64,000 nucleotides of DNA from Hyphomicrobiaceae bacterium (GCA_023384095.1 JAHDXT010000013.1:1-64000), one strand, 5' to 3'. Positions 2,479 through 19,997 are shown, numbered from the stretch's first letter. The notes: generated by a model from the sequence alone, not told the origin. Numbers and translations: made by a program.

Positions 2479-3861
2479 CTACTCTGCCGCCATCCCCTGC
2501 GGAGCCCACTTCTCGCGCATCGTGACGAGCTCCTCGGCAGCGCTCGGATGCAGGGCCATGGTCGAATCGAAATCGCCCTTGGTGGCGCCGAGGCTGAGCG
2601 CGATGGCCGCCATCTGCGCGATCTCGCCCGCATCGGGACCGAGCATGTGCACGCCGAGCACCTTCTGCGTCGCCTGGTCGACGACGATCTTCATGGTCGT
2701 GCGCTCGTCGCGGCCCGAGAGCGTGTGCTTCATGGGGCGGAAGCGCGATTTGTAGATGTCGAGCGCATATCCGGCGGCGATGGCGTCCTGCTCCGGCAGT
2801 CCGACGGTGCCGATCTCCGGCGTGGAGAACACCGCCGTCGGGATGTTGTCGTAGTCGACCCGCCACGGTTTGCTGCCGAAGACGGTGTCGGCGAAAGCGT
2901 GCCCCTCGCGGATGGCCACGGGCGTCAGGTTCACGCGGTCGGTCACGTCGCCGATGGCGTAGATGCCGGGCACATTGGTGCGGCCGTCGGCATCGACCTT
3001 GACCGCGCCCGTCTCCCCGAGCGCGACCCCGGCTTGCTTCAAGCCGAGCCGGGCGGAGTTCGGGTAGCGGCCGATGGCGAACATGATCTCGTCGGCCTCC
3101 ACCGCCGTGCCGTCGCTGAGCACGCCGACGATGCCGTTCACCTCGCGCCTGATCGCCAAAAAAGTGCAGCTCATGACGAGCTTGATGCCCCGCTTGGCAT
3201 ACTCGGCCATGAGCGCATCGCGAAGATCCTCATCGAAACCGCGCAATACCTTCTGGCCGCGATGCACCAGGGTCGTCTCGACGCCGAGGCCCGCAAAGAT
3301 CCCTGCGAACTCGACCGCGATGTAGCCACCCCCGGCGATCACCATGCGCCGCGGCAGCTTGCCGAGATGGAACGCGTCGTTGGAGGTGATGACGTGCTCG
3401 CAGCCGAGAACGCGCGTGTCGATGTAGGGGCTGGCTCCCGTCGCCACCAGAATGACCCGTGCACTGACGGAGCGGTTCTCCTTGACGAGCCGCACCGAAT
3501 GAGGACCGGCGACCTCGGCCCGCTCGTCGAAGATGGAGACTCCCGCCTTTTCGAGGTTGCCGCGGTAGATGGCCTCCAGCCGGGCGATCTCGCGATCCTT
3601 GTTGGCGACGAGCCGGCCCCAGTCGAATGTCGTCTCGCCGACGGACCAGCCGAAACCGGCCGCATCCTCGAACTCGTCCGCGAACCGGCTGGCATAGACC
3701 AGCAGCTTCTTAGGCACGCAGCCGCGGATGACGCAGGTGCCGCCGAACCGGAATTCCTCGGCAATGGCGACACTGGCGCCGTGCCCAGCGGCAACCCGCG
3801 CCGCCCGGACGCCGCCAGAGCCGCCGCCAATCACGAACAGGTCGAAGTCGTATTTCGTCAT
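2479..3861 (-). CDS. gor: Glutathione-disulfide reductase
   Basis: A 460-residue FAD-dependent pyridine nucleotide-disulfide oxidoreductase that reduces oxidised glutathione with NADPH in the cytosol. Visible features are the FAD-binding glycine motif GGGSGG (residues 12-17), the redox-active disulfide in GGTCVIRGCVPKK (Cys43, Cys48), a second Rossmann motif around VIAGGGYIAVEFAG, the ATG-type FAD motif before ASPYIDTR, the second FAD segment YAIGDVTDRVNLTP, and the C-terminal dimer motif HPSAAEELVTMREKW carrying the catalytic base His. Length matches bacterial glutathione reductases. It is separated by a palindromic element from rpiA, which lies upstream on the same strand. Confidence 0.93.
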   Translation of the reverse strand: MTKYDFDLFVIGGGSGGVRAARVAAGHGASVAIAEEFRFGGTCVIRGCVPKKLLVYASRFADEFEDAAGFGWSVGETTFDWGRLVANKDREIARLEAIYRGNLEKAGVSIFDERAEVAGPHSVRLVKENRSVSARVILVATGASPYIDTRVLGCEHVITSNDAFHLGKLPRRMVIAGGGYIAVEFAGIFAGLGVETTLVHRGQKVLRGFDEDLRDALMAEYAKRGIKLVMSCTFLAIRREVNGIVGVLSDGTAVEADEIMFAIGRYPNSARLGLKQAGVALGETGAVKVDADGRTNVPGIYAIGDVTDRVNLTPVAIREGHAFADTVFGSKPWRVDYDNIPTAVFSTPEIGTVGLPEQDAIAAGYALDIYKSRFRPMKHTLSGRDERTTMKIVVDQATQKVLGVHMLGPDAGEIAQMAAIALSLGATKGDFDSTMALHPSAAEELVTMREKWAPQGMAAE

Positions 3862-3916
3862 CGGCTCATCTCTGCTTTAGCTTCCAGTAATCACGCGTCC
3901 CATGCCACCCACTGAC

Positions 3917-4004
3917 GTCATGCCCGCGGCGGCGGGCATCCGTGCTCCCTTCGAGCGAGCACCCGGGGAGACGCATCGCAGGTGCCCGCCTGCACGGGCA
4001 TGAC
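3917..4004. repeat. 88-bp nested palindromic intergenic element
   Basis: The outer ends are a perfect 10-bp inverted repeat (gtcatgcccg at 3917-3926, cgggcatgac at 3995-4004). Inside lie further hairpins: tgcccgc/gcgggca (3921-3927 with 3932-3938), gtgctc/gagcac (3942-3947 with 3957-3962) and tgcccg/cgggca (3983-3988 with 3995-4000). It fills most of the rpiA-gor intergenic gap. The structure suggests a dispersed REP/MITE-like repeat; it could also act as an RNA processing or termination structure. The family identity is inferred, not shown. Confidence 0.6.
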
Positions 4005-4105
4005 GGTGAGTGTAGAAACGCCGGCCATCATATGCTGCGTGGTCCTGGCAGTCAGGATGAGACGGCTCAGGCACGTGAGTTGGATCGCGATGCCTGCCGA
4101 TCCCG

Positions 4106-4810
4106 TCACTCGCCGTACCGCGCCTCGAGCACTTCGACCCCTGCGGCTCCGGCGATGATCGCCGCGTCCGCGAGGCCGAGGAAGAGGCCGTTCTCCACCA
4201 CGCCCGGGACAAGCTTCAACGCCTCGTCGAGCGCGTCGGCGTCCTCGATGCGGCCGAAGGCGCAGTCGAAGATGTAGTTGCCGCCGTCGGTGACGAACGG
4301 CTGCCCGTCCTGCCCCATGCGCAAATGAACATGGCCTGTGCAGCCGGCATCGGCGGACAGCATCTCGATCATTTTGCGCGTGGCTGGAAAGCCGAACCGC
4401 ACGACCTCGACCGGCAGCGGATAGGCGCCGAGCACCGGCACACGCTTCGAGGCGTCCGCGATCACGATCATGCGCTCTGAAGCCGCCGCCACGATCTTCT
4501 CGCGCAGCAGCGCACCGCCGCCGCCCTTGATGAGCTGCAGCGCATCGTCGATCTCGTCGGCGCCGTCGATCGTCAGATCGAGCAGCGGGTCGTCCTCGAG
4601 CGTGGTCAACCGAATGCCGAGCGCCGACGCCTGGGCGCGCGTCGTCTCCGAGGTCGCGACGCCGATCACGTCGAGGCCCGCCTTCACCTTGGCGCCGAGC
4701 AGGTCGATGAATTTGGCGGCGGTCGAGCCGGTGCCGAGACCGAGCTTCATGCCCGGCTCGACGAGCGTGATGGCCCGCTCCGCCGCTTGCAGCTTCCAGG
4801 CGTCGGTCAT
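4106..4810 (-). CDS. rpiA: Ribose-5-phosphate isomerase A
   Basis: A 234-residue RpiA interconverting ribose-5-phosphate and ribulose-5-phosphate in the non-oxidative pentose phosphate pathway. Family signatures are the substrate loop [11 protein letters not shown] near residues 24-34, the catalytic acidic motif TIDGADEID, the lysine-rich loop [13 protein letters not shown], and the C-terminal [10 protein letters not shown] segment. The length is typical. The ATG at 4810 directly abuts the stop codon of the upstream dehydrogenase gene (TAG at 4811-4813), so the two are almost certainly co-transcribed and translationally coupled. Confidence 0.95.
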
Positions 4811-6247
4811 CTAGACGCCGCCCATCAGCATGTACTTGATCTCCAGGAACTCCTCGACGCCGTGGTGCGAGCCCTCACGGCCGAGACCGGATTCCTTGAC
4901 ACCGCCGAAGGGAGCGACCTCGGACGAGATGATCCCCTCGTTGATGCCGATGATGCCGTATTCGAGGCTTTCGCCGACGCGCCAGACCCGGCCGACGTCG
5001 CGGGAGTAGAAGTAGGCGGCCAGGCCGAACTCGGTGTCGTTGGCGAGCCTGATCGCCTCCTCCTCGGTCTTGAAGCGGAACAGCGGCGCCACCGGCCCGA
5101 ACGTCTCCTCGCGCGCCACCATCATGTCGCTCGTGACGCCCGTGAGGACCGTCGGCTCGAAGAAATTGCCGCCGAGCGCCTTGCCGCCGAGGATCACCTT
5201 GGCGCCCTTCGACGTCGCATCGGTGATGTGCTCCTCGACCTTCGCCACGCCCGCCTTGTTGATGAGCGGTCCCGTCGTCACGCCAGTCTCCGTGCCGCGG
5301 CCGACCTTGAGCTTTTTGACCTCGGCCGCGAGCTTCTCCGCGAAGGCGTCATAGACGCCGTCCTGCACGTAGATGCGGTTGGCGCAGACGCAGGTCTGGC
5401 CGGCGTTGCGGTACTTGGACGCCATCGCACCCTGCACGGCCTTGTCGAGGTCGGCGTCGTCGAACACGATGAATGGCGCGTTGCCGCCGAGCTCCATTCC
5501 GACCTTCTTGACGGTCCTGGCGCACTGCTCGATCAGCACCTTGCCGACGGCGGTCGAGCCGGTGAAAGTCAGCATCCGCACAGCCGGGTTGGAGGTCAGC
5601 TCGCCGCCGATCACCGCCGCCTTGCCGGTGATGACGTTGAGCACGCCCTTGGGCATGCCGGCACGCTCGGCGAGCTCCGCCAATGCGAGCGCCGTCAGCG
5701 GCGTCTCGGAGGCGGGCTTGCAGACGACCGTGCAGCCGACCGCCAGCGCCGGCGCCACCTTGCGGGTGATCATGGCCGCCGGGAAGTTCCAGGGCGTGAT
5801 CGCCGCCACAACACCTACCGGCTGCTTGACGCAGACGATGCGCGCGTCCTTCTTGAAGGTGGGGATCGTCTCGCCGTAGATGCGCTTGGCCTCCTCGGCA
5901 TAGAACTCCACGAACGAGGCGGCGTAAGTGACCTCGCCCTTGGCCTCGGCCAGCGGCTTGCCCTGCTCGCTGGTCATCAGCAGCGCCAGCTCATCGGCGT
6001 GCTCGATCTGCAGGTCGTACCAGCGGCGCAGGATCCTGGCGCGGTCCTTGGCCAGCATGGCGGCCCAGGCAGGCTGCGCACGCCCGGCAGCGGCGACGGC
6101 CGCGCGCGTGTCCTCGGCGCTCATCAGGGGGACCCTGGCGATCTCGTCGCCGCTCGCGGGATCGGTGACGGGCAGCGCCGGCTCGCCGACCCAGCGGCCG
6201 TCGACGTAGCACTGCGTCCTGAGGAGACTGATCACGGGCTTGTCCAT
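4811..6247 (-). CDS. gabD: NAD(P)-dependent succinate-semialdehyde dehydrogenase
   Basis: A 478-residue aldehyde dehydrogenase of the GabD type, oxidising succinate semialdehyde to succinate in 4-aminobutyrate degradation. Visible are the cofactor-site ITPWNFPAAMITRK, GSTAVGK, the general base region ELGGNAPFIVFDDAD, the catalytic cysteine in NAGQTCVCANR, and the C-terminal PFGGVKESGLGREGSHHG typical of succinate-semialdehyde dehydrogenases. The start at 6247 is chosen because GGAGG lies at 6255-6259, 7 nt upstream; the much longer open frame beyond it reads through non-homologous sequence. The stop abuts the rpiA start, forming a gabD-rpiA pair. No GABA transaminase is in view. Confidence 0.93.
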   Translation of the reverse strand: MDKPVISLLRTQCYVDGRWVGEPALPVTDPASGDEIARVPLMSAEDTRAAVAAAGRAQPAWAAMLAKDRARILRRWYDLQIEHADELALLMTSEQGKPLAEAKGEVTYAASFVEFYAEEAKRIYGETIPTFKKDARIVCVKQPVGVVAAITPWNFPAAMITRKVAPALAVGCTVVCKPASETPLTALALAELAERAGMPKGVLNVITGKAAVIGGELTSNPAVRMLTFTGSTAVGKVLIEQCARTVKKVGMELGGNAPFIVFDDADLDKAVQGAMASKYRNAGQTCVCANRIYVQDGVYDAFAEKLAAEVKKLKVGRGTETGVTTGPLINKAGVAKVEEHITDATSKGAKVILGGKALGGNFFEPTVLTGVTSDMMVAREETFGPVAPLFRFKTEEEAIRLANDTEFGLAAYFYSRDVGRVWRVGESLEYGIIGINEGIISSEVAPFGGVKESGLGREGSHHGVEEFLEIKYMLMGGV

Positions 6248-6412
6248 CGGGGGACCTCCATGCACGGGAACTCGGGGCCACACTACCGCATCAGCAGGCT
6301 GACCGGTTTGATCTAGGTCCGGTGATGGCCCCTGGCAAGCGCGGTGAGCCCCGTGACAGCACCGCGCGGATGGCCTAAGGGTCGCGGACCCGGAAGGAAG
6401 CCGCCCAGCCCC

Positions 6413-7090
6413 ATGCGTGATGCGACCCTCGTCTTCGATCTCGACGGCACCCTGATCGACACGGCGCCCGATCTCATCCATGCCGCCAACCACGTCCTCG
6501 CGAGCCGTGGCCTGGAGCCGGTCGCAGCCGAACGGCTGAAGCCCGAGATCAGCTTCGGCGCCCGCCACATCATCGCCGCCGGCCTCCGCATTCGCGGCGT
6601 CGCCTTCACCGAGCCCGAGCTCGACGCGATGCTCGACCGCTTCCTCGAATTCTACGCCGACAACATGGCCGTCGAGAGCCGGCCGTTCGACGGCCTCCTC
6701 GCGGCGCTCGAAGGCTGCCTCGGCGAGGGCGCCACGCTCGCGGTGTGCACCAACAAGCGCGAGGGCCTGTCGCGCCTGCTGCTCGAGCAACTGGGGCTGA
6801 TGCGCCTGTTCCGGGCGATCGCCGGCCGCGACACTTTCCCGGTCTGCAAGCCGCATCCCGGCCACTTGCTCGGCGCCATCAGGCTGGCGGGCGGCGACCC
6901 GGGCCGGGCCGTCATGGTGGGCGACAGCGAGGTCGATGTCAGCACGGCGAAGGCCGCTCGCATCCCCATCATCGGCGTCACCTTCGGCTACACGCACATT
7001 CCGGTGACGGAGCTCGGCACCGACGCCGTGATCGACGGCTACGGCGAGCTCCGGGCGGCGCTGGATGGAATACTGGCGCGGCCGGCTTGA
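6413..7090 (+). CDS. gph: Phosphoglycolate phosphatase, HAD family
   Basis: A 225-residue HAD-superfamily hydrolase. Motif I is at the N-terminus (VFDLDGTLIDTAPDL, nucleophile Asp near residue 8), motif II in VCTNK, motif III lysine in CKPHPGHLLGA, and motif IV in MVGDSEVDVSTAKAA. The pattern matches Gph, which clears 2-phosphoglycolate formed by oxygenation or DNA repair. The ATG at 6413 is preferred over the upstream 6344 because GGAAGGAAG lies just before it and family alignment begins there. It diverges from gabD-rpiA and is convergent with the dehydrogenase gene that follows. Confidence 0.88.
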   Translation: MRDATLVFDLDGTLIDTAPDLIHAANHVLASRGLEPVAAERLKPEISFGARHIIAAGLRIRGVAFTEPELDAMLDRFLEFYADNMAVESRPFDGLLAALEGCLGEGATLAVCTNKREGLSRLLLEQLGLMRLFRAIAGRDTFPVCKPHPGHLLGAIRLAGGDPGRAVMVGDSEVDVSTAKAARIPIIGVTFGYTHIPVTELGTDAVIDGYGELRAALDGILARPA

Positions 7091-7117
7091 AGAGGCATCC
7101 GGTCGCGCGAGCAACGG

Positions 7118-8449
7118 CTACTCGGATCCTTTGTATGCCACCCGAAATATCGTGCCGTTGGCATCATCGCTGACCAGGAGGGCGCCATCCTGAGCGACCG
7201 CTATGCCTGCCGGCCGGCCCCAGACCCTGTCATCGTCCAACACGAATCCGGTCATGAAATCCTCGTACACCCCCGTCGGCTTGCCCTCTTTCATAAGGAG
7301 GCGGATCACCTTGTATCCGGTCTTCTCCTCGCGGTTCCAGGACCCGTGCAGCGTGGCGAAGGCGTCGCCGCGGTATTCACGCGGGAGTGCGTCCTTGTCG
7401 TAGAAGACGACATCCAGGGTGGATGAATGCGCCTGGATCAGGGCCTCGGGGGTGGTCACCCTGCCTTTGAGATCGGGGCGCTCCCCGGCGTGGGCCGGAT
7501 CCTCGTTGCTGCCGATATAGTGCCAGGGCCAGCCGTAGAACCCGCCGTCCTGCACGCTGGTCAAGTAGTCGGGCGGCACATTGGCGCCGAGGTGGTCGCG
7601 TTCGTTCCCCGTGCACCACAAGGTGTCGGTGCCCGGCTGCATCGCCATGCCGGAGCAATTGCGCAGGCCGGTCGCATAATTGCGGACGGTCCTGCCTTCC
7701 GGATCGAACACGCGCACCACGGCCCGGTTCTCTTCCTCGTCCCACGACGCGCCGACCCCATGCGTCTCTTCGTATTGCCGGATTTCGTCTGGCGTCTTCT
7801 CCGGCATTTCGGCGGCGACGTTGGAGGCCGATCCGACCGCAACGAAGAGGCGGTTGCCGTCGCGCGAAATCTCGAGGTCACGTGTCCAGTGCCGGCTGGT
7901 GGGGATATCTGCGATGACGACTTCGGCCGGCCCGGTCGCCTTGCGGTCGCCGTTGCGGTACGGGAAGCGCACCACCTGGTTCGCCGCCCCAACATAGACG
8001 CGCTGCGGTTCGGTCGGGGGAGAGAATACGATCCCATAGGGTCGATCGAGGTCCTCGGCGAAGACTTCGGGCTTTACCGGAGCGCCCGCGGAAGGCCCGC
8101 CGGGGAAAACCAGCACACGACCAGTCCCGCTTTCGGCTACAAAGACGTCGCCATTCGGTGCGATCCGGATGACGCGGGGCTGCTTCAGTCCGCTGGCGAA
8201 CACCTGCACCGTAAAGCCCTGCGGCACATCCGGCATCACCCCTTGGGGCGCGTCGACAACCGTTGGCCTGTTCTCGAAATCAGGCTCTTCGGGGTCGTTG
8301 CCATTCGTAGGCGGCGGCAGATCCGACGGCCGGATATGACGCCGAACGCCGGGGGGGTCGCTCTCCCAGTCGGCAAAAGCATCGGCTCCGACACGCATCT
8401 CCGCAGACTGCGCGGGCGCCATTAGAATGAGCGACAGCAAGGAACTCAT
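7118..8449 (-). CDS. PQQ-type sugar (sorbosone) dehydrogenase, exported
   Basis: A 443-residue protein with a short hydrophobic leader ending AQSA, so probably periplasmic. The body is a six-bladed beta-propeller of the glucose/sorbosone dehydrogenase family: GFTVQVFASGLKQPRVIRIAPNGDVFVAE opens the first blade, and motifs such as DRPYGIVFSP, SRHWTRDLEISRDGNRLFVAVGS, GLRNCSGMAMQPGTDTLW, and GRPAGIAVAQDGALLVSDDANGTIFRV follow. Family members oxidise aldoses or sorbosone with PQQ, though many relatives are untested. No cytochrome c motif CXXCH is present. The ATG at 8449 gives a leader with almost no positive n-region; an in-frame stop lies only a few codons upstream, so the start is a little uncertain. 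Confidence 0.75.
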   Translation of the reverse strand: MSSLLSLILMAPAQSAEMRVGADAFADWESDPPGVRRHIRPSDLPPPTNGNDPEEPDFENRPTVVDAPQGVMPDVPQGFTVQVFASGLKQPRVIRIAPNGDVFVAESGTGRVLVFPGGPSAGAPVKPEVFAEDLDRPYGIVFSPPTEPQRVYVGAANQVVRFPYRNGDRKATGPAEVVIADIPTSRHWTRDLEISRDGNRLFVAVGSASNVAAEMPEKTPDEIRQYEETHGVGASWDEEENRAVVRVFDPEGRTVRNYATGLRNCSGMAMQPGTDTLWCTGNERDHLGANVPPDYLTSVQDGGFYGWPWHYIGSNEDPAHAGERPDLKGRVTTPEALIQAHSSTLDVVFYDKDALPREYRGDAFATLHGSWNREEKTGYKVIRLLMKEGKPTGVYEDFMTGFVLDDDRVWGRPAGIAVAQDGALLVSDDANGTIFRVAYKGSE

Positions 8450-8504
8450 CAGGAATATCGAGGAGCGCGTGTCTTAGTCCTCCCGGAACTTCTGTCCGCC
8501 CCCT

Positions 8505-9746
8505 CTAATCGCCGTCGGCCGTTGCGGTTCCGCCGGCGCGGCAGGCCGGCTTCTCCAACAGCGGGCAGCCGGCGGGCATGGCGGCCGCCTTGCGCTCCAT
8601 GACGGCGCGCGAGCTGCGCTGCAGGTAGTGCGCGATCGTCTCCACACGGATCTTCACCGAGCCGGCAGGCTTCGTCGAATCGAGCTCCTGGAATGAGAAG
8701 AACAGCGTGCCCGAGCGCTCGACGATCTGCTGCACGGGCGTGAACGTCGGCTGGTCCATGCCGCACTCGTAGCTCGTCAGCCGGATGGCGCAGGTCACCC
8801 AGGGCACGCGCGCGGCCGCCTTCGCGCCCCACAGGATCTCGTTCGTGTTGGCGCTGTAGGACGACGGCCAAACGTCCGAAATGTCGAAGACGGATTTGGC
8901 GTAACCCTCGCGGATGTCGGGGCCGAACATCCAATCGAGCAGGTCCGGGTCGGTCGGGAAGTACTGCATCCACAGGATCGGATAGCCGTGGGCCTGCAGG
9001 TCGGCCTCGATCTCGTGGCCGATGCCGGCGTCCATGTGGTAGGGGCGGGCCAGCACCATGACGCACGGGCGCTGCTCGCGCGCGCACCATTCGAGGATCC
9101 TGCGGCTGCGGGACCGCAGCTCCCGGTCGAAGGCCGCCAGCGTGCGGTAGCCTTGATCGACCGCCTCCCGAACCTCCTCGAAGCGCAGGCCCGGCAGCAC
9201 GCCTTCGAACGCGATGAAGAGCTGCTTGGGCACCTGCAGCGGATCGACGAGCGAGACCAGCGGCGCCACGTAGCGGATGCCCTGCTCGGCGAAGACGTCC
9301 TTCTCCTTGAGAAACCCCGACTTGATGTTCTCCGGCGCCGCCATGACGCGCGGGCAGGCGAGCGAATCGGCGACATGCCCGTGCAGGAAGGAAGGCATGG
9401 AATAGATCATCGGCGAGAACAGGATGTCGATCTTGCGCTTCTGGCCGAAGACGAGCTCGCCATAGTGCCCCGAGATGCACTTCACAGGATAGCAGCAGTC
9501 GACCGTGCCGCGGCCGCTGCCGAACTCGCGGCCTTGCTCCTCGGATGTGTCGGAGGAGAACACCACCCGGTTGCCCGGGATGCCGAGGCTGGCGAAGAAA
9601 CCGAGCCAGAGCTGGTGCGTGGTCCAGACGTTGAGGACCTTCGGGATGCCGATCCTGAGCTTCGCCCGCTCGGCGCGCTCAGGTCTCTGCCCATGCCCGC
9701 CGGAAGGCCTCCGATCGAACCATCTCGCCAATATTGGGAAGTTCAC
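8505..9746 (-). CDS. Acyl-CoA dehydratase activase-related protein (DUF2229-like)
   Basis: A 413-residue protein matching the portion of the large 'CoA-substrate-specific enzyme activase' proteins known as DUF2229. Characteristic blocks are RIGIPKVLNVW at residues 31-41, the cysteine-rich CCYPVKCISGHYGEL (Cys84, Cys85, Cys90), FSPMIYSMPSF, ACPRVMAAPENIKSGF, and RPYHMDAGIGHEIEADL. It is the third gene of a three-gene operon. Its start is a GTG at 9746 with a strong GGAGGAG eight bases upstream, inside the end of the preceding activase gene (68-nt overlap, different frame). The cysteines suggest an iron-sulfur cluster. In other bacteria this domain is fused to the activase; here it is separate. 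Substrate unknown. Confidence 0.75.
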   Translation of the reverse strand: MNFPILARWFDRRPSGGHGQRPERAERAKLRIGIPKVLNVWTTHQLWLGFFASLGIPGNRVVFSSDTSEEQGREFGSGRGTVDCCYPVKCISGHYGELVFGQKRKIDILFSPMIYSMPSFLHGHVADSLACPRVMAAPENIKSGFLKEKDVFAEQGIRYVAPLVSLVDPLQVPKQLFIAFEGVLPGLRFEEVREAVDQGYRTLAAFDRELRSRSRRILEWCAREQRPCVMVLARPYHMDAGIGHEIEADLQAHGYPILWMQYFPTDPDLLDWMFGPDIREGYAKSVFDISDVWPSSYSANTNEILWGAKAAARVPWVTCAIRLTSYECGMDQPTFTPVQQIVERSGTLFFSFQELDSTKPAGSVKIRVETIAHYLQRSSRAVMERKAAAMPAGCPLLEKPACRAGGTATADGD

Positions 9747-11838
9747 GGCGCTGCTCCTCCATCCGGGTCTTGACGGCCCGCATCTCGTTGGCGTCCTCCA
9801 TCAGCCCCTTGGGGCAGGAATTGCCGCTGATGACGCGCTCCCAGCCCTCCTCGAGGGGCACCTTGCTCCACGGCCGCCCCGAGGCGCCGTCGAGCTTCAC
9901 GTCGATGAAGGCCCGCTTGCAGTTCACCGGGCACCAGCGGCAGATGGTGTGCTCGCTGGTGGTGCTGCGGTAGTCCAGCACCTCGATGGCATCGAAGCCG
10001 CGGAAGCTGCTCGGCCGGCCCGCGTCGTGCGCCTCGATGGCGCACAGCGCCGCACCGATGGCGCCGGCCTCGCCCGAGTAGGGATGGATCAGGATTTCGG
10101 CATCGGGAACCTTGGCGGTGATGAAGTCGACCTGCGCCTTGACCACCGCCATGTTGCGATGCGTGCCGCCCTGCAGCACGAATCGCCGCCCGGCTGCCCG
10201 CAGGTTCTGGAGCTGGCCGGCGTAGATCCACACGTTGAGCGGCAGCACCGCGGCGAGCGAGGCCATGATCTCCTCGGCCGACCAGCCCTTGCGCTGCTGA
10301 TTGACGATGTCCGACTGCAGGAAGACCCCGCAGCCCATCGCGAGCCCCGGCATCGCCTTGGCCTGGAACGCCTTGTCGGCGTAGTCCTCGAGCGCGATGC
10401 CGTAGCGCTCTGCCACGCCCTGCAGGAAGGCGCCGTTGCCGGAGGAGCACTGCGAGTTGAGCCGGAAGTCGGAAACGGTGCCCTGCCGCAGGATCATGAT
10501 CTTCACGTCGGTGCCGCCGACGTCGCAGATGACGTCCGCATCCGGGAACACGTGCAGCGCCGAGGTGGCATGCGCCACCGTCTCGACCACGCCGATGTCG
10601 GCGCCGAGGATGTCCCTCAGCAGGTCCTTGCCGTAGCCGGTCAGCGCCAGGCCGGCGACTGGCCCGCGAGCCTTGGCGCGAATGTCTCGGAACAGCGCCT
10701 TCGCATCTTCGATCGGATTGCCCTTGGACGGAACATAGACGCTGGCCAAAATCTCCCTGTCGGCGCCGAGCACCACGGCCTTGGCAGTCGTGCTGCCGAA
10801 GTCGCAGCCTATGAAGACGGGACTGTCACACGAGGCTAATGCCGCCAACTCTCCCCGGCTGGCAGCGAACGCAGCCTTGAAGCCCGACAGATCGTCATTT
10901 TCGCGCACGAGCGCCTTGGCGCCGCTCTTGGCCTTCTCCTGATGCTGCCCTTCGTCGATCCACCAGCGCAGCCGCTCTGTCCCCTGATACAGCCCGACAC
11001 CATCCGCCTCGCCGCCGGCGACCTCGATGCAGCCGAGCGCCGCATAGTAGAGCGCGTCGTCGGGCACCTGGATCATGTCGGCGGGATCGGCGTCCGCCGG
11101 CAAGATGCACTTGCGGTCCTCCCACAGGCTCGTCAGGTGCTGCCGCCAGGCCTGCTGCAGGCCCTTGAAGAACAGGTTGGGCCCGCCGAGCAGCAGCACC
11201 TGCGGCAAGGGCGTGTTGCCTTTCGTCAGCGTCGCCAGGTTCTGGTAGACCACCGCCTCGAACAGGCTGGCGATGATCTCCTCGACGGGCACGCCGCCCT
11301 TCAGCAGCGTGTTGGCATCGGCCTCGGCGAAGATCCCGCACTTGGAGCTGACCTTGTGCAGGCTCATGCCGTCGTAGGGCATGGCCGCGAGCTGCTCGGC
11401 AGGAATCTGCAGCTTGCGGGCCGTCTTCTCGATGAACGTGCCCGTGCCGCCGCTGCAGGCGGACTGCATGTAGACCTGCTTGGTCTTGCCAGCCCCGCTC
11501 TCGTTGAAGAACAGCGTCTTCATGTCCTCGCCGCCGATCTCGGACACGAAGCGGACATGCGGGTGCAGCTTCTCGACAGCGGCAGCGACGGCCACCACCT
11601 CCTGCACCAGCTTGCCGCCGACCAGCGGCCCGATCAGGCCGGCGCCGGAGCCGGTGAAGAACACGAGGTCGCGACCGGCCGCGAGCGAAAGCTCCTGCTC
11701 CATTCGCGTCAGGAACTCGATCGCCTTCTCGGCCTGCCTGGTGTTGTGGCGCTGGTAATCGCGCCACGACACGCGGCCGTCCTCGACGACCACGGCCTTG
11801 ATGGTGGTCGAGCCGACATCCATGCCGACGATCCTCAT
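9679..11838 (-). CDS. Tandem BadF/HgdC-type ATPase (acyl-CoA dehydratase activase)
   Basis: A 719-residue protein made of two activase (ASKHA-fold ATPase) domains in tandem, the kind that inject a low-potential electron into a dehydratase or benzoyl-CoA reductase at the cost of ATP. Domain 1 has phosphate loop DVGSTT (7-12) and cluster cysteines Cys128 (SACSGGTGTF) and Cys167 (SSKCGIFAEAD). Domain 2 has DFGSTT (346-351) with Cys464 (NSQCSSGNGAF) and Cys503 (MGCGVFLQSD). A C-terminal region adds Cys633, Cys636, Cys640 and Cys675 in ICRWCPVNCKR and GNSCPKG. The ATG at 11838 overlaps the upstream stop (ATGA), giving translational coupling. Because both domains keep their cysteine pair, one chain could bridge a 4Fe-4S cluster as a pseudo-dimer. 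The client enzyme is presumably the upstream gene product. Confidence 0.85.
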   Translation of the reverse strand: MRIVGMDVGSTTIKAVVVEDGRVSWRDYQRHNTRQAEKAIEFLTRMEQELSLAAGRDLVFFTGSGAGLIGPLVGGKLVQEVVAVAAAVEKLHPHVRFVSEIGGEDMKTLFFNESGAGKTKQVYMQSACSGGTGTFIEKTARKLQIPAEQLAAMPYDGMSLHKVSSKCGIFAEADANTLLKGGVPVEEIIASLFEAVVYQNLATLTKGNTPLPQVLLLGGPNLFFKGLQQAWRQHLTSLWEDRKCILPADADPADMIQVPDDALYYAALGCIEVAGGEADGVGLYQGTERLRWWIDEGQHQEKAKSGAKALVRENDDLSGFKAAFAASRGELAALASCDSPVFIGCDFGSTTAKAVVLGADREILASVYVPSKGNPIEDAKALFRDIRAKARGPVAGLALTGYGKDLLRDILGADIGVVETVAHATSALHVFPDADVICDVGGTDVKIMILRQGTVSDFRLNSQCSSGNGAFLQGVAERYGIALEDYADKAFQAKAMPGLAMGCGVFLQSDIVNQQRKGWSAEEIMASLAAVLPLNVWIYAGQLQNLRAAGRRFVLQGGTHRNMAVVKAQVDFITAKVPDAEILIHPYSGEAGAIGAALCAIEAHDAGRPSSFRGFDAIEVLDYRSTTSEHTICRWCPVNCKRAFIDVKLDGASGRPWSKVPLEEGWERVISGNSCPKGLMEDANEMRAVKTRMEEQRRELPNIGEMVRSEAFRRAWAET

Positions 11839-13361
11839 GCCGCCATCCTCAGCCGTCGGCCGGCCACGTGCAGCATGGTGTTGGCCGCCGTCCCGGCCAC
11901 GCCCAGGTGCGGCACTCGATACGTCGCCCTGCGCATCGCGGGATTCCTGTCGAGCACGCGGCGGACGGAATCGGGATCGAGGCCCGTCTTCTCCATCACG
12001 CTCACGTACTCGCGGATGGCGCGCCGCTTGGCTTCCGTGAGGACCATCTGGCAGCGCGACAGCGCATGCACCTCCGCGTCGCCCTTGACCTCGATCGGGG
12101 CGTAGAGCAGGTCGGGGTGCTGGCCGACGACGCCCGCCATGGCGCCGATGCTCATGGTGTTCGGCATGCAGGAGTAGGGCGACAGCTCGCAGACCATGTG
12201 CGCCTTGTTGTGAACATGGGCCCACAGCGCCTTGCCGATCAGCATGTCGCCTTCCCCGCCGGACAGGCGGTGATGGAAGTAGGGCGCCGCGAGCCGCCGC
12301 AGCTCATACTGGTCGGGAATCTCGTGGGGGATGCCGCCGAGCGCCTTGCGCATGCGCTCGTAGACGCCGCGGAAGACGGCCTGCAGACCCTTGAGTGCCC
12401 AGATCTTCGCCCTCGCCGCACGATCGGTGCCGACGCGGTCCTCCAGCTCCTGGACATAGAAGCGGATCCAGTAGTCGAGCCAGACGACGATGGGCGCCGG
12501 ATAGACCTCGGCGCCCTCGGACTCGAGCCAGCTGTGAATGTTGTAGTTGGGATCGCCTTCGACCGTCTGGAGATAGAATTCACCGGTGATCTTCACCACC
12601 GGCTTGACCTGCAGCCGGTCGACCTCGATGGCCTCGAACCTGCGATGGACCTCGCGCAGAGCCTTCGTGAAATAGGTCGTGGTCAGATGCCAGGCGAGCG
12701 GCCCCCACTTCTCCCCCTTGGGGGGCCGATTGCGGAAGACCTCGCACAGGTGTTCGACGCTCTCCCTGACGGCCTTGTCCGTCTGTCCGGCGACGACCTC
12801 GTATGGCCGAGTGCGGTATTCCAGGCTCTGCACCGCATCCGTGCACAGAATGGCCCACACCATGCCGAGCGTGAGCGGGATATTGACCTCGAGGCCGCCG
12901 CCTTTCAGGGCGCCTTGGTCCATCCGGTTCTGATCGACCAGGAATACACGGAAGGACTCCAGCCCGATGTTGCGCAGCGCGAGCTCATAGCTCTGATGAT
13001 ACTGCCCGAAGCGGCAGGCGCCGCAGGCGCCGGCGGTCACGTAGACGTATCTGTCAGCGACGGCCTCGGGGCCGATGCGCTTTCCCTCCTCGCGAAGGAA
13101 GCTCGCCAGGTTGCCGGTCGTAAAGCTCGTCGGGCAGCATTGTCCGATGTCGGCGAGCTCGCGGCCGAGCAGGAGATCGTCCCTGGTGGCGACCGGTAGC
13201 GGGCGCGCCTTGTAGCCCAGGTTCTCGAACACGGCCTGCATGACGTTCTCGGCGCGCCAGTGCAGCCCTCCGTAGAGGATCTCGACGTTCCCGATTTCGG
13301 ATCTGGTGAGGGGTCGCGGCGTGTAGGCGCGGTAATGTTGCTGCTGCGGCGAGGTGGCCAT
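11835..13361 (-). CDS. 2-hydroxyacyl-CoA dehydratase-like (HgdB/FldB-like) protein
   Basis: A 508-residue protein resembling the dehydratase-like C-terminal portion of large activase fusions and the HgdB/FldB/BcrB dehydratase-reductase superfamily. Cysteine motifs likely to hold a 4Fe-4S or larger cluster are DIGQCCPTSFTTG (Cys75, Cys76), GACGACRFGQYHQ (Cys113, Cys116) and CELSPYSCMPN near residue 410. It is the first gene of the operon; its stop overlaps the activase start by 4 nt. The start at 13361 is preferred to 13460 because GGAGC lies upstream and the longer N-terminus is not like the family. The reaction is unknown: dehydration of a 2-hydroxyacyl-CoA is the family default, but related double-cubane proteins reduce other small molecules. 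Confidence 0.75.
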   Translation of the reverse strand: MATSPQQQHYRAYTPRPLTRSEIGNVEILYGGLHWRAENVMQAVFENLGYKARPLPVATRDDLLLGRELADIGQCCPTSFTTGNLASFLREEGKRIGPEAVADRYVYVTAGACGACRFGQYHQSYELALRNIGLESFRVFLVDQNRMDQGALKGGGLEVNIPLTLGMVWAILCTDAVQSLEYRTRPYEVVAGQTDKAVRESVEHLCEVFRNRPPKGEKWGPLAWHLTTTYFTKALREVHRRFEAIEVDRLQVKPVVKITGEFYLQTVEGDPNYNIHSWLESEGAEVYPAPIVVWLDYWIRFYVQELEDRVGTDRAARAKIWALKGLQAVFRGVYERMRKALGGIPHEIPDQYELRRLAAPYFHHRLSGGEGDMLIGKALWAHVHNKAHMVCELSPYSCMPNTMSIGAMAGVVGQHPDLLYAPIEVKGDAEVHALSRCQMVLTEAKRRAIREYVSVMEKTGLDPDSVRRVLDRNPAMRRATYRVPHLGVAGTAANTMLHVAGRRLRMAA

Positions 13362-13592
13362 GAGCTGCGCTCCATCCCGGAGATGCCGACGTGACCACGA
13401 ACAATTCAGACAGCAAATAGTTCCCAAGGAGCTGCGGTCGACCTCGGGTTGCGCGAGCAACGATGCTGTGTCCGGGCTGCCTGAGCCATGGCCCGAGCCG
13501 GGCCAAATCAGGCACTCCGCTGTCGCACAAACTCCCAGGCGTGATCGAGGTTCCGCACGGACGCCGACCGATCCGCATCCGGCGGCCCGGCG

Positions 13593-18558: not shown

Positions 18559-18915
18559 ATGGCTCGCGTCCGGTTTTGGCCGAACGATGACGCTGAGAAC
18601 ACGAAATTTATGCCCCCGCAATACTGAAAAATATCCGCCGTATTTTTATGAGTACGACATCAGCCAGAAGGAGAAGGTTGAGATCGTAGAGTTTCTATAT
18701 TCGGTTGCAGAAAATTTCGCGGATCTGGCATTCGGCGTTCACCCACCCAGCTCTTGAATGCAGGTGAAGACAGGCAAAGCATCATCGATTTTTTTGAAGA
18801 AATGTCCAACGATCCGGTGGTGGATGAATTGCTGGCTGAATGTAAGAAATCGGGCAAATTCAATAGCGATCCTGCTGAAGGTCAGCTTGCCTGCCCGCCA
18901 AAAGCAAGCCAGTAG
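18559..18915 (+). pseudogene. Frameshifted hypothetical gene remnant
   Basis: From an ATG at 18559 (aagga 4 nt upstream) the frame reads 22 codons (MARVRFWPNDDAENTKFMPP...) and stops at 18625-18627. Coding-like sequence then continues in the +1 frame (EKYPPYFYEYDISQKEKVE, 18626-18757), and returns to the original frame near 18745 (QLLNAGEDRQSIIDFFEEMS...) to a TAG at 18913-18915. Together this is about 118 codons interrupted by two compensating frame shifts. Base composition is clearly lower in GC than the surroundings. I do not recognise the protein. It overlaps the 3' end of the convergent fic gene by about 34 nt. Sequencing error is a formal alternative. The stretch 18444-18558 holds nothing else I can identify. 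Confidence 0.55.
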
Positions 18916-19997
18916 CGGGTTGCCTTCCGGTCGCCCGTCCTGACCAGAGCGCCAAGAGCCACAAGCTCTCCTAGATCACGCCGCGCTGTGGCTGGCGACG
19001 CTCCGGTGATGGAGCCGTAGTTTCCGGCGGAAAGCCCTCCTTCAAATCCATCCGGTCCTTCTCGCAGCATGCGTAGCAGCGCTTTCTCCTGACGTAAGTT
19101 GATCTTGCCCCGCAAGCCATCCAGCAGCCTGGCCTTGGCGATCAGGAAGTCGATCCAGTGTTGCGTATGGCTCTGAGCCTCCAGCACCGTTTCCCCGAAC
19201 CATATCAGCCAGGGGGTGATCTCGTTGTCCTTGCTCGCGTTCTCCAGCGCGGCGTAATAGGCCTTGCGTTTTCGCTCTATCATGACGGAAAGGGCCGTCA
19301 TGCTCGGCTGCCCAAGCCCTTGCGCCAGAGCTTTTTCTGCAATCGCCCTCCCGATCCGACCATTGCCGTCTTCAAAGGGGTGGATGGACTCAAAATAGAG
19401 ATGGGCTATCCCTGTACGGGCAAGCGCAGGCAGAGGCTTTCTGCCGTCAGGCGCTGTCTCGTTGAACCAAAGGCAAAACGTCTCCATCTCGGCTTCAACG
19501 CGATTGGAGGGTGGCGCTTCGTAGTGAACCTTGGGTGCGTGGATCGCCCCGGAGACGATTTGCATCGGCTCCGTGTGCGTGCGGTACCCACCGATATCCC
19601 TGATATCGCGGCGAGCGTTCATCAGGAGCCTGTGCCAGTCGAACAGAACCTGGTGTGTGAGCGGGATGTCGAAGTGCCGGTAAAGATCGACCATCATCTC
19701 GGCAATACCCTGTTCGGCGGCCCCGATGCGCCTGTGGTCGGTACTCAGGCCGAACTGACGCCGGATGGACGATTGCAGGCTGTCCCGATCCAGGATCTCG
19801 CCCTCGATCTCCGACGTTTTGAACGCCTCACTGCTGATGATCTCGACTGTAAGCTGCGCAGATTCGTCTTCGGCAAGGTGCCGTGCAGCGCCGATAACGA
19901 TCCCGCCCTGCTGCAAGAATCTTGCTTCCAGAGGGGCGAGAGCCTCCGCGTCAAAACGGAAGCGAGGCCAGTCGGGTTGTTGCCAGCTCCACATCAT
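18882..19997 (-). CDS. Fic-domain protein (DUF4172 N-terminus, winged-helix C-terminus)
   Basis: A 371-residue Fic protein, probably an AMP-transferase acting on a host-cell protein of its own cytosol. The N-terminal WSWQQPDWPRFRFD is typical of the DUF4172 subgroup. The Fic core motif HPFEDGNGRIGRA (residues 206-218) has the catalytic His206, Asp210 and Arg214 intact. An N-terminal inhibitory motif of the form (S/T)xxxE(G/N) is present at residues 61-66 (TSEIEG), so activity is likely self-restrained (class II). The last 70 residues look like a winged helix-turn-helix (SPATARRDLGELVALGALV), suggesting DNA binding. Two palindromes lie at and just upstream of the start codon, so autoregulation is likely. 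The gene has moderately lower GC than its neighbours. Confidence 0.9.
   Translation of the reverse strand: MMWSWQQPDWPRFRFDAEALAPLEARFLQQGGIVIGAARHLAEDESAQLTVEIISSEAFKTSEIEGEILDRDSLQSSIRRQFGLSTDHRRIGAAEQGIAEMMVDLYRHFDIPLTHQVLFDWHRLLMNARRDIRDIGGYRTHTEPMQIVSGAIHAPKVHYEAPPSNRVEAEMETFCLWFNETAPDGRKPLPALARTGIAHLYFESIHPFEDGNGRIGRAIAEKALAQGLGQPSMTALSVMIERKRKAYYAALENASKDNEITPWLIWFGETVLEAQSHTQHWIDFLIAKARLLDGLRGKINLRQEKALLRMLREGPDGFEGGLSAGNYGSITGASPATARRDLGELVALGALVRTGDRKATRYWLAFGGQAS

Follow-up and report, generated by a model that had tools for sequence, protein, structure and literature searches.

What kind of enzyme is encoded by three tightly coupled genes in an alphaproteobacterial contig, one for a tandem activase, one for a DUF2229 protein and one for a protein without a Pfam family, and what does it act on? 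The genes lie within a 64,000-nucleotide stretch of DNA from a Hyphomicrobiaceae bacterium (the window) and run in the order P0003, P0002, P0001, 5' to 3' on the minus strand, spanning 13361-8505. The three-gene system is confirmed as real and as conserved across phyla. We infer with good confidence that it is an ATP-driven machine, and we consider it likely to be a self-contained redox enzyme of the archerase kind, built around a P0001/P0003 heterodimer; the heterodimer, its cluster types, the electron path and the oxygen sensitivity are what we infer on top of the observed gene set. A first-pass annotation had described three coupled genes joined by an ATGA overlap and a 68-nt overlap, with a GTG start behind GGAGGAG, and the coordinates and frames were all found to be correct:

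13361-11835, minus strand: P0003 gene, 508 aa, ATG start; predicted HAD/DCCP-fold subunit A, matching the C-terminal module of fused proteins of ~1400 aa
11838-9679, minus strand: P0002 gene, 719 aa, ATG start; tandem BcrAD/HgdC-type activase
9746-8505, minus strand: P0001 gene, 413 aa, GTG start; DUF2229, predicted HAD/BCR/DCCP-fold subunit B
11835-11838, minus strand: ATGA stop/start overlap of P0003 and P0002, 4 nt
9679-9746, minus strand: overlap of P0002 and P0001, 68 nt, kept across phyla
9760-9754, minus strand: GGAGGAG ribosome-binding motif ahead of the P0001 GTG start

In the first 15 comparison loci holding both genes, P0002 and P0001 mostly overlap by exactly 68 nt, several other loci have 62-80 nt, and a GAGGA-type Shine-Dalgarno-like motif is kept in most; in 11 of 12 Rokubacteria loci the overlap measures 71-89 nt. 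Programmed frameshifting at this overlap was considered and rejected. The Shine-Dalgarno-like motif and a GTG or ATG start are kept in most loci and no slippery heptamer was seen on inspection by eye, which favours re-initiation over a frameshift. Recent foreign origin finds no signal in composition (GC 66.6% for the operon, 67.5% for the window), and a scan for promoters and terminators gave no match exceeding chance.

P0002 consists of two ASKHA ATPase halves (BcrAD_BadFG domains) followed by a C-terminal Cys4 module. Profile searches matched PF01869/TIGR00241 twice (TIGR00241 with 228 bits, in two stretches) and HgdC (1HUX) with an E of 2.4e-29. Each half combines the ASKHA ATPase profile with two cluster cysteines, as in activases of the BcrAD/HgdC type; in an alignment with 1HUX, Cys464 and Cys503 of the second half fall at both cysteine motifs of HgdC, Cys128 and Cys167 are the corresponding pair of the first half, and all four residues are invariant in homologues. 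The benzoyl-CoA reductase equivalogs scored far below their thresholds, TIGR02261 giving 106 bits against a cut-off of 313 and TIGR02259 giving 104 against 578.

P0001 matches PF09989 (DUF2229) with an E of 8.9e-42 and 143.6 bits, the curated cut-off being 29.4; the PF06050 HGD-D profile was unmatched at E 0.001. The predicted model of P0001 (mean pLDDT 76, with poorly predicted cluster loops) found its best PDB matches in HadC, BzdO, BzdN and DCCP (Foldseek E 1.8e-4). In VIA comparisons the match to HadC extended over 274 residues at 4.9 Å with a Z of 10.6, about 2 Z units over unrelated folds, and DCCP, BzdO and the Mbd subunits also matched. On the strength of this model, DUF2229 is probably a second dehydratase-fold subunit forming one half of the catalytic core, rather than an accessory domain.

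Relaxing the Pfam threshold to E <= 10 gave only chance hits for P0003, and none of 14 P0003 homologues matches PF06050 at E 10. DCCP heads the Foldseek list for its model (mean pLDDT 75, cluster loops again poorly predicted), with an E of only 0.011, and HadC is matched as well; in VIA the HadC/BzdO/DCCP family occupies ranks 1-9 (Z 7.4-4.5). The dehydratase-like nature of P0003 is thus deduced from the fold comparison together with its homology to the fused proteins' C-terminal module. Direct profile-profile comparison of P0003 with P0001 found no match, and comparisons with YjiM and with the R. ruber and Azoarcus dehydratases gave weak matches; a strong 'hgd-duf' profile-profile match was discarded as an artefact of overlapping slices of fused proteins. 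No HAD model and no benzoyl-CoA reductase equivalog profile matched P0001 or P0003, and the NCBIfam double_cubane model NF040772 matched neither at E 0.001. In keeping with the first-pass description of a separate system, profile searches placed none of the three proteins in a characterised enzyme system, and equivalog matches lay far below their cut-offs. Because both models match the HadC/BzdO/DCCP fold best, P0001 and P0003 probably form a heterodimeric 'component D'.

The conserved cysteines bear on this prediction. Fourteen are common to three-gene, two-gene and fused homologues, three in P0003, three in P0001 and four plus four in P0002:

13137-13139, minus strand: P0003 Cys75, present in every homologue and proposed as cluster ligand 1
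13014-13016, minus strand: P0003 Cys116, present in every homologue and proposed as ligand 2
12168-12170, minus strand: P0003 Cys398, present in every homologue and proposed as ligand 3
11457-11455 and 11340-11338, minus strand: P0002 Cys128 and Cys167, predicted cluster ligands of the first half
10449-10447 and 10332-10330, minus strand: P0002 Cys464 and Cys503, predicted cluster ligands of the second half
9942-9814, minus strand: P0002 Cys633, Cys636, Cys640 and Cys675, C-terminal Cys4 module, conserved in all homologues
9492-9494, minus strand: P0001 Cys85, present in every homologue and proposed as ligand 1
9354-9356, minus strand: P0001 Cys131, present in every homologue and proposed as ligand 2
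8763-8765, minus strand: P0001 Cys328, present in every homologue and proposed as ligand 3

Loss of these ligands was not found in close homologues, where they are invariant. Component D of HadBC is a heterodimer of homologous subunits with a three-cysteine [4Fe-4S] cluster in each, and the activase that serves it carries a pair of cysteines in every subunit (PMC11574389); the ligands of BzdO are Cys95, Cys128 and Cys380 (PMC11971306). The parts list of the operon is that of HadBC component D and its activase, with two predicted HAD-fold subunits carrying three cluster cysteines each, the ligands being taken as equivalent from their number, order and spacing only. The shared fold and three-cysteine sets, with an activase of the HgdC kind, are what would be expected of a true 2-hydroxyacyl-CoA dehydratase, in which ATP-driven single-electron priming would support many turnovers on a CoA thioester made elsewhere; the unmatched PF06050 profile speaks against it, as does the gene neighbourhood described below.

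The three-gene clade has further invariant cysteines, at positions 76, 113, 391 and 437 of P0003 (in all of the 28 or 29 sequences) and 84 of P0001, so that the conserved set reads 75, 76, 113, 116, 391, 398 and 437 in P0003 and 84, 85, 131 and 328 in P0001. Those of P0003 adjoin the three universal cysteines, with one more 39 residues past the last; Cys76, next to Cys75, is specific to the three-gene clade, Cys113 is common to the three-gene and two-gene forms, and the fused homologues are without most of them. A seven-cysteine P0003 might hold a larger cluster, in which case the enzyme could be a small-molecule reductase of the double-cubane-cluster type (acetylene-, azide- or hydrazine-like). 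The invariance of the four additional cysteines fits such an enzyme, as does the position of DCCP in the Foldseek search, but the six-cysteine spacing of double-cubane proteins is absent in P0003 and P0001 (compared by spacing, not structure) and the double_cubane model is unmatched. The spacing of the extra cysteines also differs from that in BzdN, whose ligands include Cys263, Cys293 and Cys327, two of them lying 34 and 64 residues before the last (PMC11971306). With most of the extra cysteines missing from the fused homologues as well, we hold a double-cubane-type enzyme to be quite unlikely.

The operon had been regarded as an alphaproteobacterial version of the superfamily, and in this the annotation was wrong. 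Contigs were scanned with P0002 and its nearest relative (from genome G036), and the P0002 scan found 17 loci with 61-79% identity, in Alpha-, Beta- and Gammaproteobacteria, Rokubacteria, Methylomirabilota, Acidobacteria, Binatia and Spirochaetes; a scan with P0003 alone gave no matches, the P0003 patterns being too specific. P0003 occurs in 26 of 95 Methylomirabilota/Rokubacteria genomes (E <= 1e-60; a few copies are of lower similarity or fragmented) and in 2 of 148 genomes of the Binatota phylum, and DUF2229 in 2 of 149 relatives of the window's genome, with Lactococcus lactis, which has DUF2229, as the control. The clade is common in Methylomirabilota/Rokubacteria and rare among the host's relatives. 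Since the relatives from the P0002 scan are all metagenome-assembled, odd single placements may be binning errors; a Pseudomonadales member within the alphaproteobacterial group is one such placement. At least 15 loci have three separate genes, not one polypeptide, and the order is constant wherever the contig extends, the exception being G036/L039.

In the G036 copy (L004 9618-13020) an internal deletion leaves the first and last 20-25 codons of P0003, in different frames, and the DUF2229 gene is broken near its 3' end by ~1.8 kb; with P0003 lost and the other two genes retained, the three may not always be needed together, or this copy may be decaying. Such decay, with the sporadic occurrence among relatives of the host, might suggest that the operon of the window is itself a functionless remnant. 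This is highly improbable, as it has three open frames and a full set of ligands, the overlaps and the Shine-Dalgarno-like motif are kept, and its proteins are 57-80% identical to those of relatives over their full length.

In a tree of P0002, with long branches to the fused outgroup, the three-gene set forms one clade (support 100/99) and the two-gene intermediates are its sister group. The giant fused proteins have the order activase-activase-DUF2229-C-terminal module and occur in Bacillota, Fusobacteriota, Coriobacteriia and a few Alphaproteobacteria; in Fusobacterium the modules of the fused family are split over two genes. The intermediates, with 33-45% identity to the window proteins, have an activase-DUF2229 fusion followed by a P0003-like gene:

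5951-10706 of locus L091: two-gene intermediate, Methylomirabilota phylum
2740-7876 of locus L092: two-gene intermediate, Binatota phylum

Judged from these arrangements, the three-gene form looks derived: P0003 would have moved ahead of the other modules, and a frame change in the activase-DUF2229 linker, of which the overlap is the remnant, may have separated the two. The earlier description of a giant polypeptide in split form holds for the modules, which are homologous, but the gene order is permuted and not merely split.

Upstream of the operon in the window lie rnd and aspS, and downstream a glucose/sorbosone-dehydrogenase-like gene and an SSADH-like gene. The former (7118-8449, same strand) starts 55 nt past the operon and could be co-transcribed with it; it was not found beside other copies. 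The SSADH-like frame (4811-7114) is without a family match in its first 300 codons, and its true start is probably further in. Elsewhere in the window, 18882-19997 encodes a Fic/DOC protein with a DUF4172 N-terminal domain. Neighbourhood comparison found no neighbour gene common to loci across phyla; a kinase/Sel1 pair and one other neighbour pair were each common to two loci only. No CoA-transferase, acyl-CoA dehydrogenase or 2-hydroxyacid gene adjoins any examined locus, and the first-pass observation that no acyl-CoA metabolic gene lies beside the operon holds in the window and in the examined relatives. The HAD-type sets of Azoarcus and Rhodococcus, by contrast, adjoin CoA-transferase and acyl-CoA dehydrogenase genes, and we judge a true 2-hydroxyacyl-CoA dehydratase to be unlikely.

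The lack of a neighbouring metabolic gene would also suit a system for maturation or repair, one whose reduction target is a protein-bound cofactor and not a free metabolite, comparable to the corrinoid activation systems RACo/RamA. In organisms as different as Listeria, Fusobacterium and Collinsella the fused gene stands alone, which suggests a general function, and methanogenesis marker 15 is among the activase families nearest to P0002, with a match far below the cut-off. The operon, however, has its own predicted component-D-like heterodimer and no client protein consistently co-occurs, and we assign this explanation a low probability.

One candidate partner was found in Rokubacteria, where most loci with enough upstream sequence carry an intact-looking gene of ~270-310 residues directly upstream of P0003, usually overlapping it by 20 nt (L076-L090; for example L077 8202-9026). 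Three loci hold its 3' end only (in L085 at a contig end), it is frame-broken in L063, and in L054 and L055 it is absent despite 1500 bases of upstream sequence. Its invariant motifs, of the types QDIESHT, EETFHG, INELT and DESRHFFFYY, make up the E/ExxH/E/ExxH signature of ferritin-like diiron proteins, and it weakly matches acyl-ACP desaturases (PF03405, E 1e-5; DesA2 1ZA0, E 0.002). Apart from the two Rokubacteria genomes, none of the examined carriers, the window genome and G036 included, was found to have a relative of this gene. We can only guess that the diiron protein shields the complex from oxygen or acts in the same pathway.

Returning to the ATP-driven redox enzyme that we prefer, the two halves of P0002 would form an internal pseudo-dimer with one [4Fe-4S] cluster held between Cys128/Cys167 and Cys464/Cys503. 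ATP hydrolysis would change the shape of P0002 around this shared cluster, and electrons would be injected singly into the P0001/P0003 heterodimer. With three invariant cysteines apiece, P0001 and P0003 could each hold a [4Fe-4S] cluster that leaves one site open; of the two clusters, one might act as a relay while the other, through its open iron site, would bind substrate as the active site, giving a reduced or reductively dehydrated small molecule as product. The enzyme is probably oxygen-sensitive. For the substrate reaction we lean towards a reductase acting on a soluble metabolite whose pathway is not encoded beside the operon, with a reductive dehydratase as second choice; reduction is preferred because no copy is surrounded by a CoA pathway of the kind seen with the Azoarcus and Rhodococcus sets. 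The earlier label 'radical dehydratase' should be read as one possibility, a reductase being at least as likely. More tentatively, the operon may represent a further archerase class, distinct from dehydratases, benzoyl-CoA reductases and DCCP, in which the DUF2229/P0003 heterodimer has a doubled-ligand P0003 of seven invariant cysteines, with a possible undescribed larger or second cluster and a diiron operon partner in Rokubacteria; that partner would then be an oxygen shield or an oxidising partner in the same pathway.

Term searches of the open literature found no functional study of DUF2229 or of the giant fused activase proteins, which are widespread in bacteria including Listeria and Fusobacterium. 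SMU_0438c of S. mutans, annotated as activator-related, is 2.2-fold up on manganese depletion, which is not decisive (PMC6952196). Few ATP-driven low-potential reductases are known, and they carry out chemistry that is difficult by other routes. The operon divides the machine into three separately expressible parts and offers a testable picture of DUF2229 as a catalytic-core subunit, and the Rokubacteria diiron protein is a genomic lead to a partner. New here are the proposal that DUF2229 belongs to the catalytic core, the plan of 14 cysteines, the recognition of a clade spanning several phyla and the candidate diiron partner in Rokubacteria.

Finally, the operon was compared with known systems. 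It resembles the class I benzoyl-CoA reductases (BcrCBAD/BzdNOPQ/MbdONPQ) in having two ATPase halves and two predicted HAD-fold subunits, and BzdO and MbdN/O are among its fold matches, but the benzoyl-CoA reductase equivalog models score far below cut-off. The host carries separate bcrC, bcrB and bcrA genes on contig C10 (G000:C10, L053 ~7565-13534), together with genes for 6-oxocyclohex-1-ene-1-carbonyl-CoA hydratase and cyclohexa-1,5-dienecarbonyl-CoA hydratase, all over their equivalog cut-offs. The host thus probably degrades aromatics anaerobically, and with this dearomatisation set in place the operon is not its benzoyl-CoA reductase. With HadBC/HgdAB and HadI/HgdC it shares the activase cysteine motifs and a pair of predicted HAD-fold subunits, each having three invariant cysteines; it differs in its activase, which is tandem rather than homodimeric and has the extra Cys4 module, in having neither a PF06050 match nor CoA pathway genes, and in sequence, the fold alignments showing only ~10% identity. 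Likeness to DCCP/YjiM and its reductase lies in the fold and the ATP-driven activase, whereas the two different subunits contrast with a homodimer, and the six-cysteine spacing and NF040772 match are absent. Also compared were the giant fused proteins (for example Listeria WP_014600632, Haliovirga WP_307905574), in which tandem BcrAD, DUF2229 and the C-terminal module are joined. All modules are homologous (identity 28-32% for the activase, 22-25% for DUF2229 and 21-26% for the C-terminal module), the same 14 cysteines are present and no client gene lies nearby, but the operon consists of three genes, has the C-terminal module at the front, and adds the invariant cysteines 76, 391 and 437 of P0003 and 84 of P0001.
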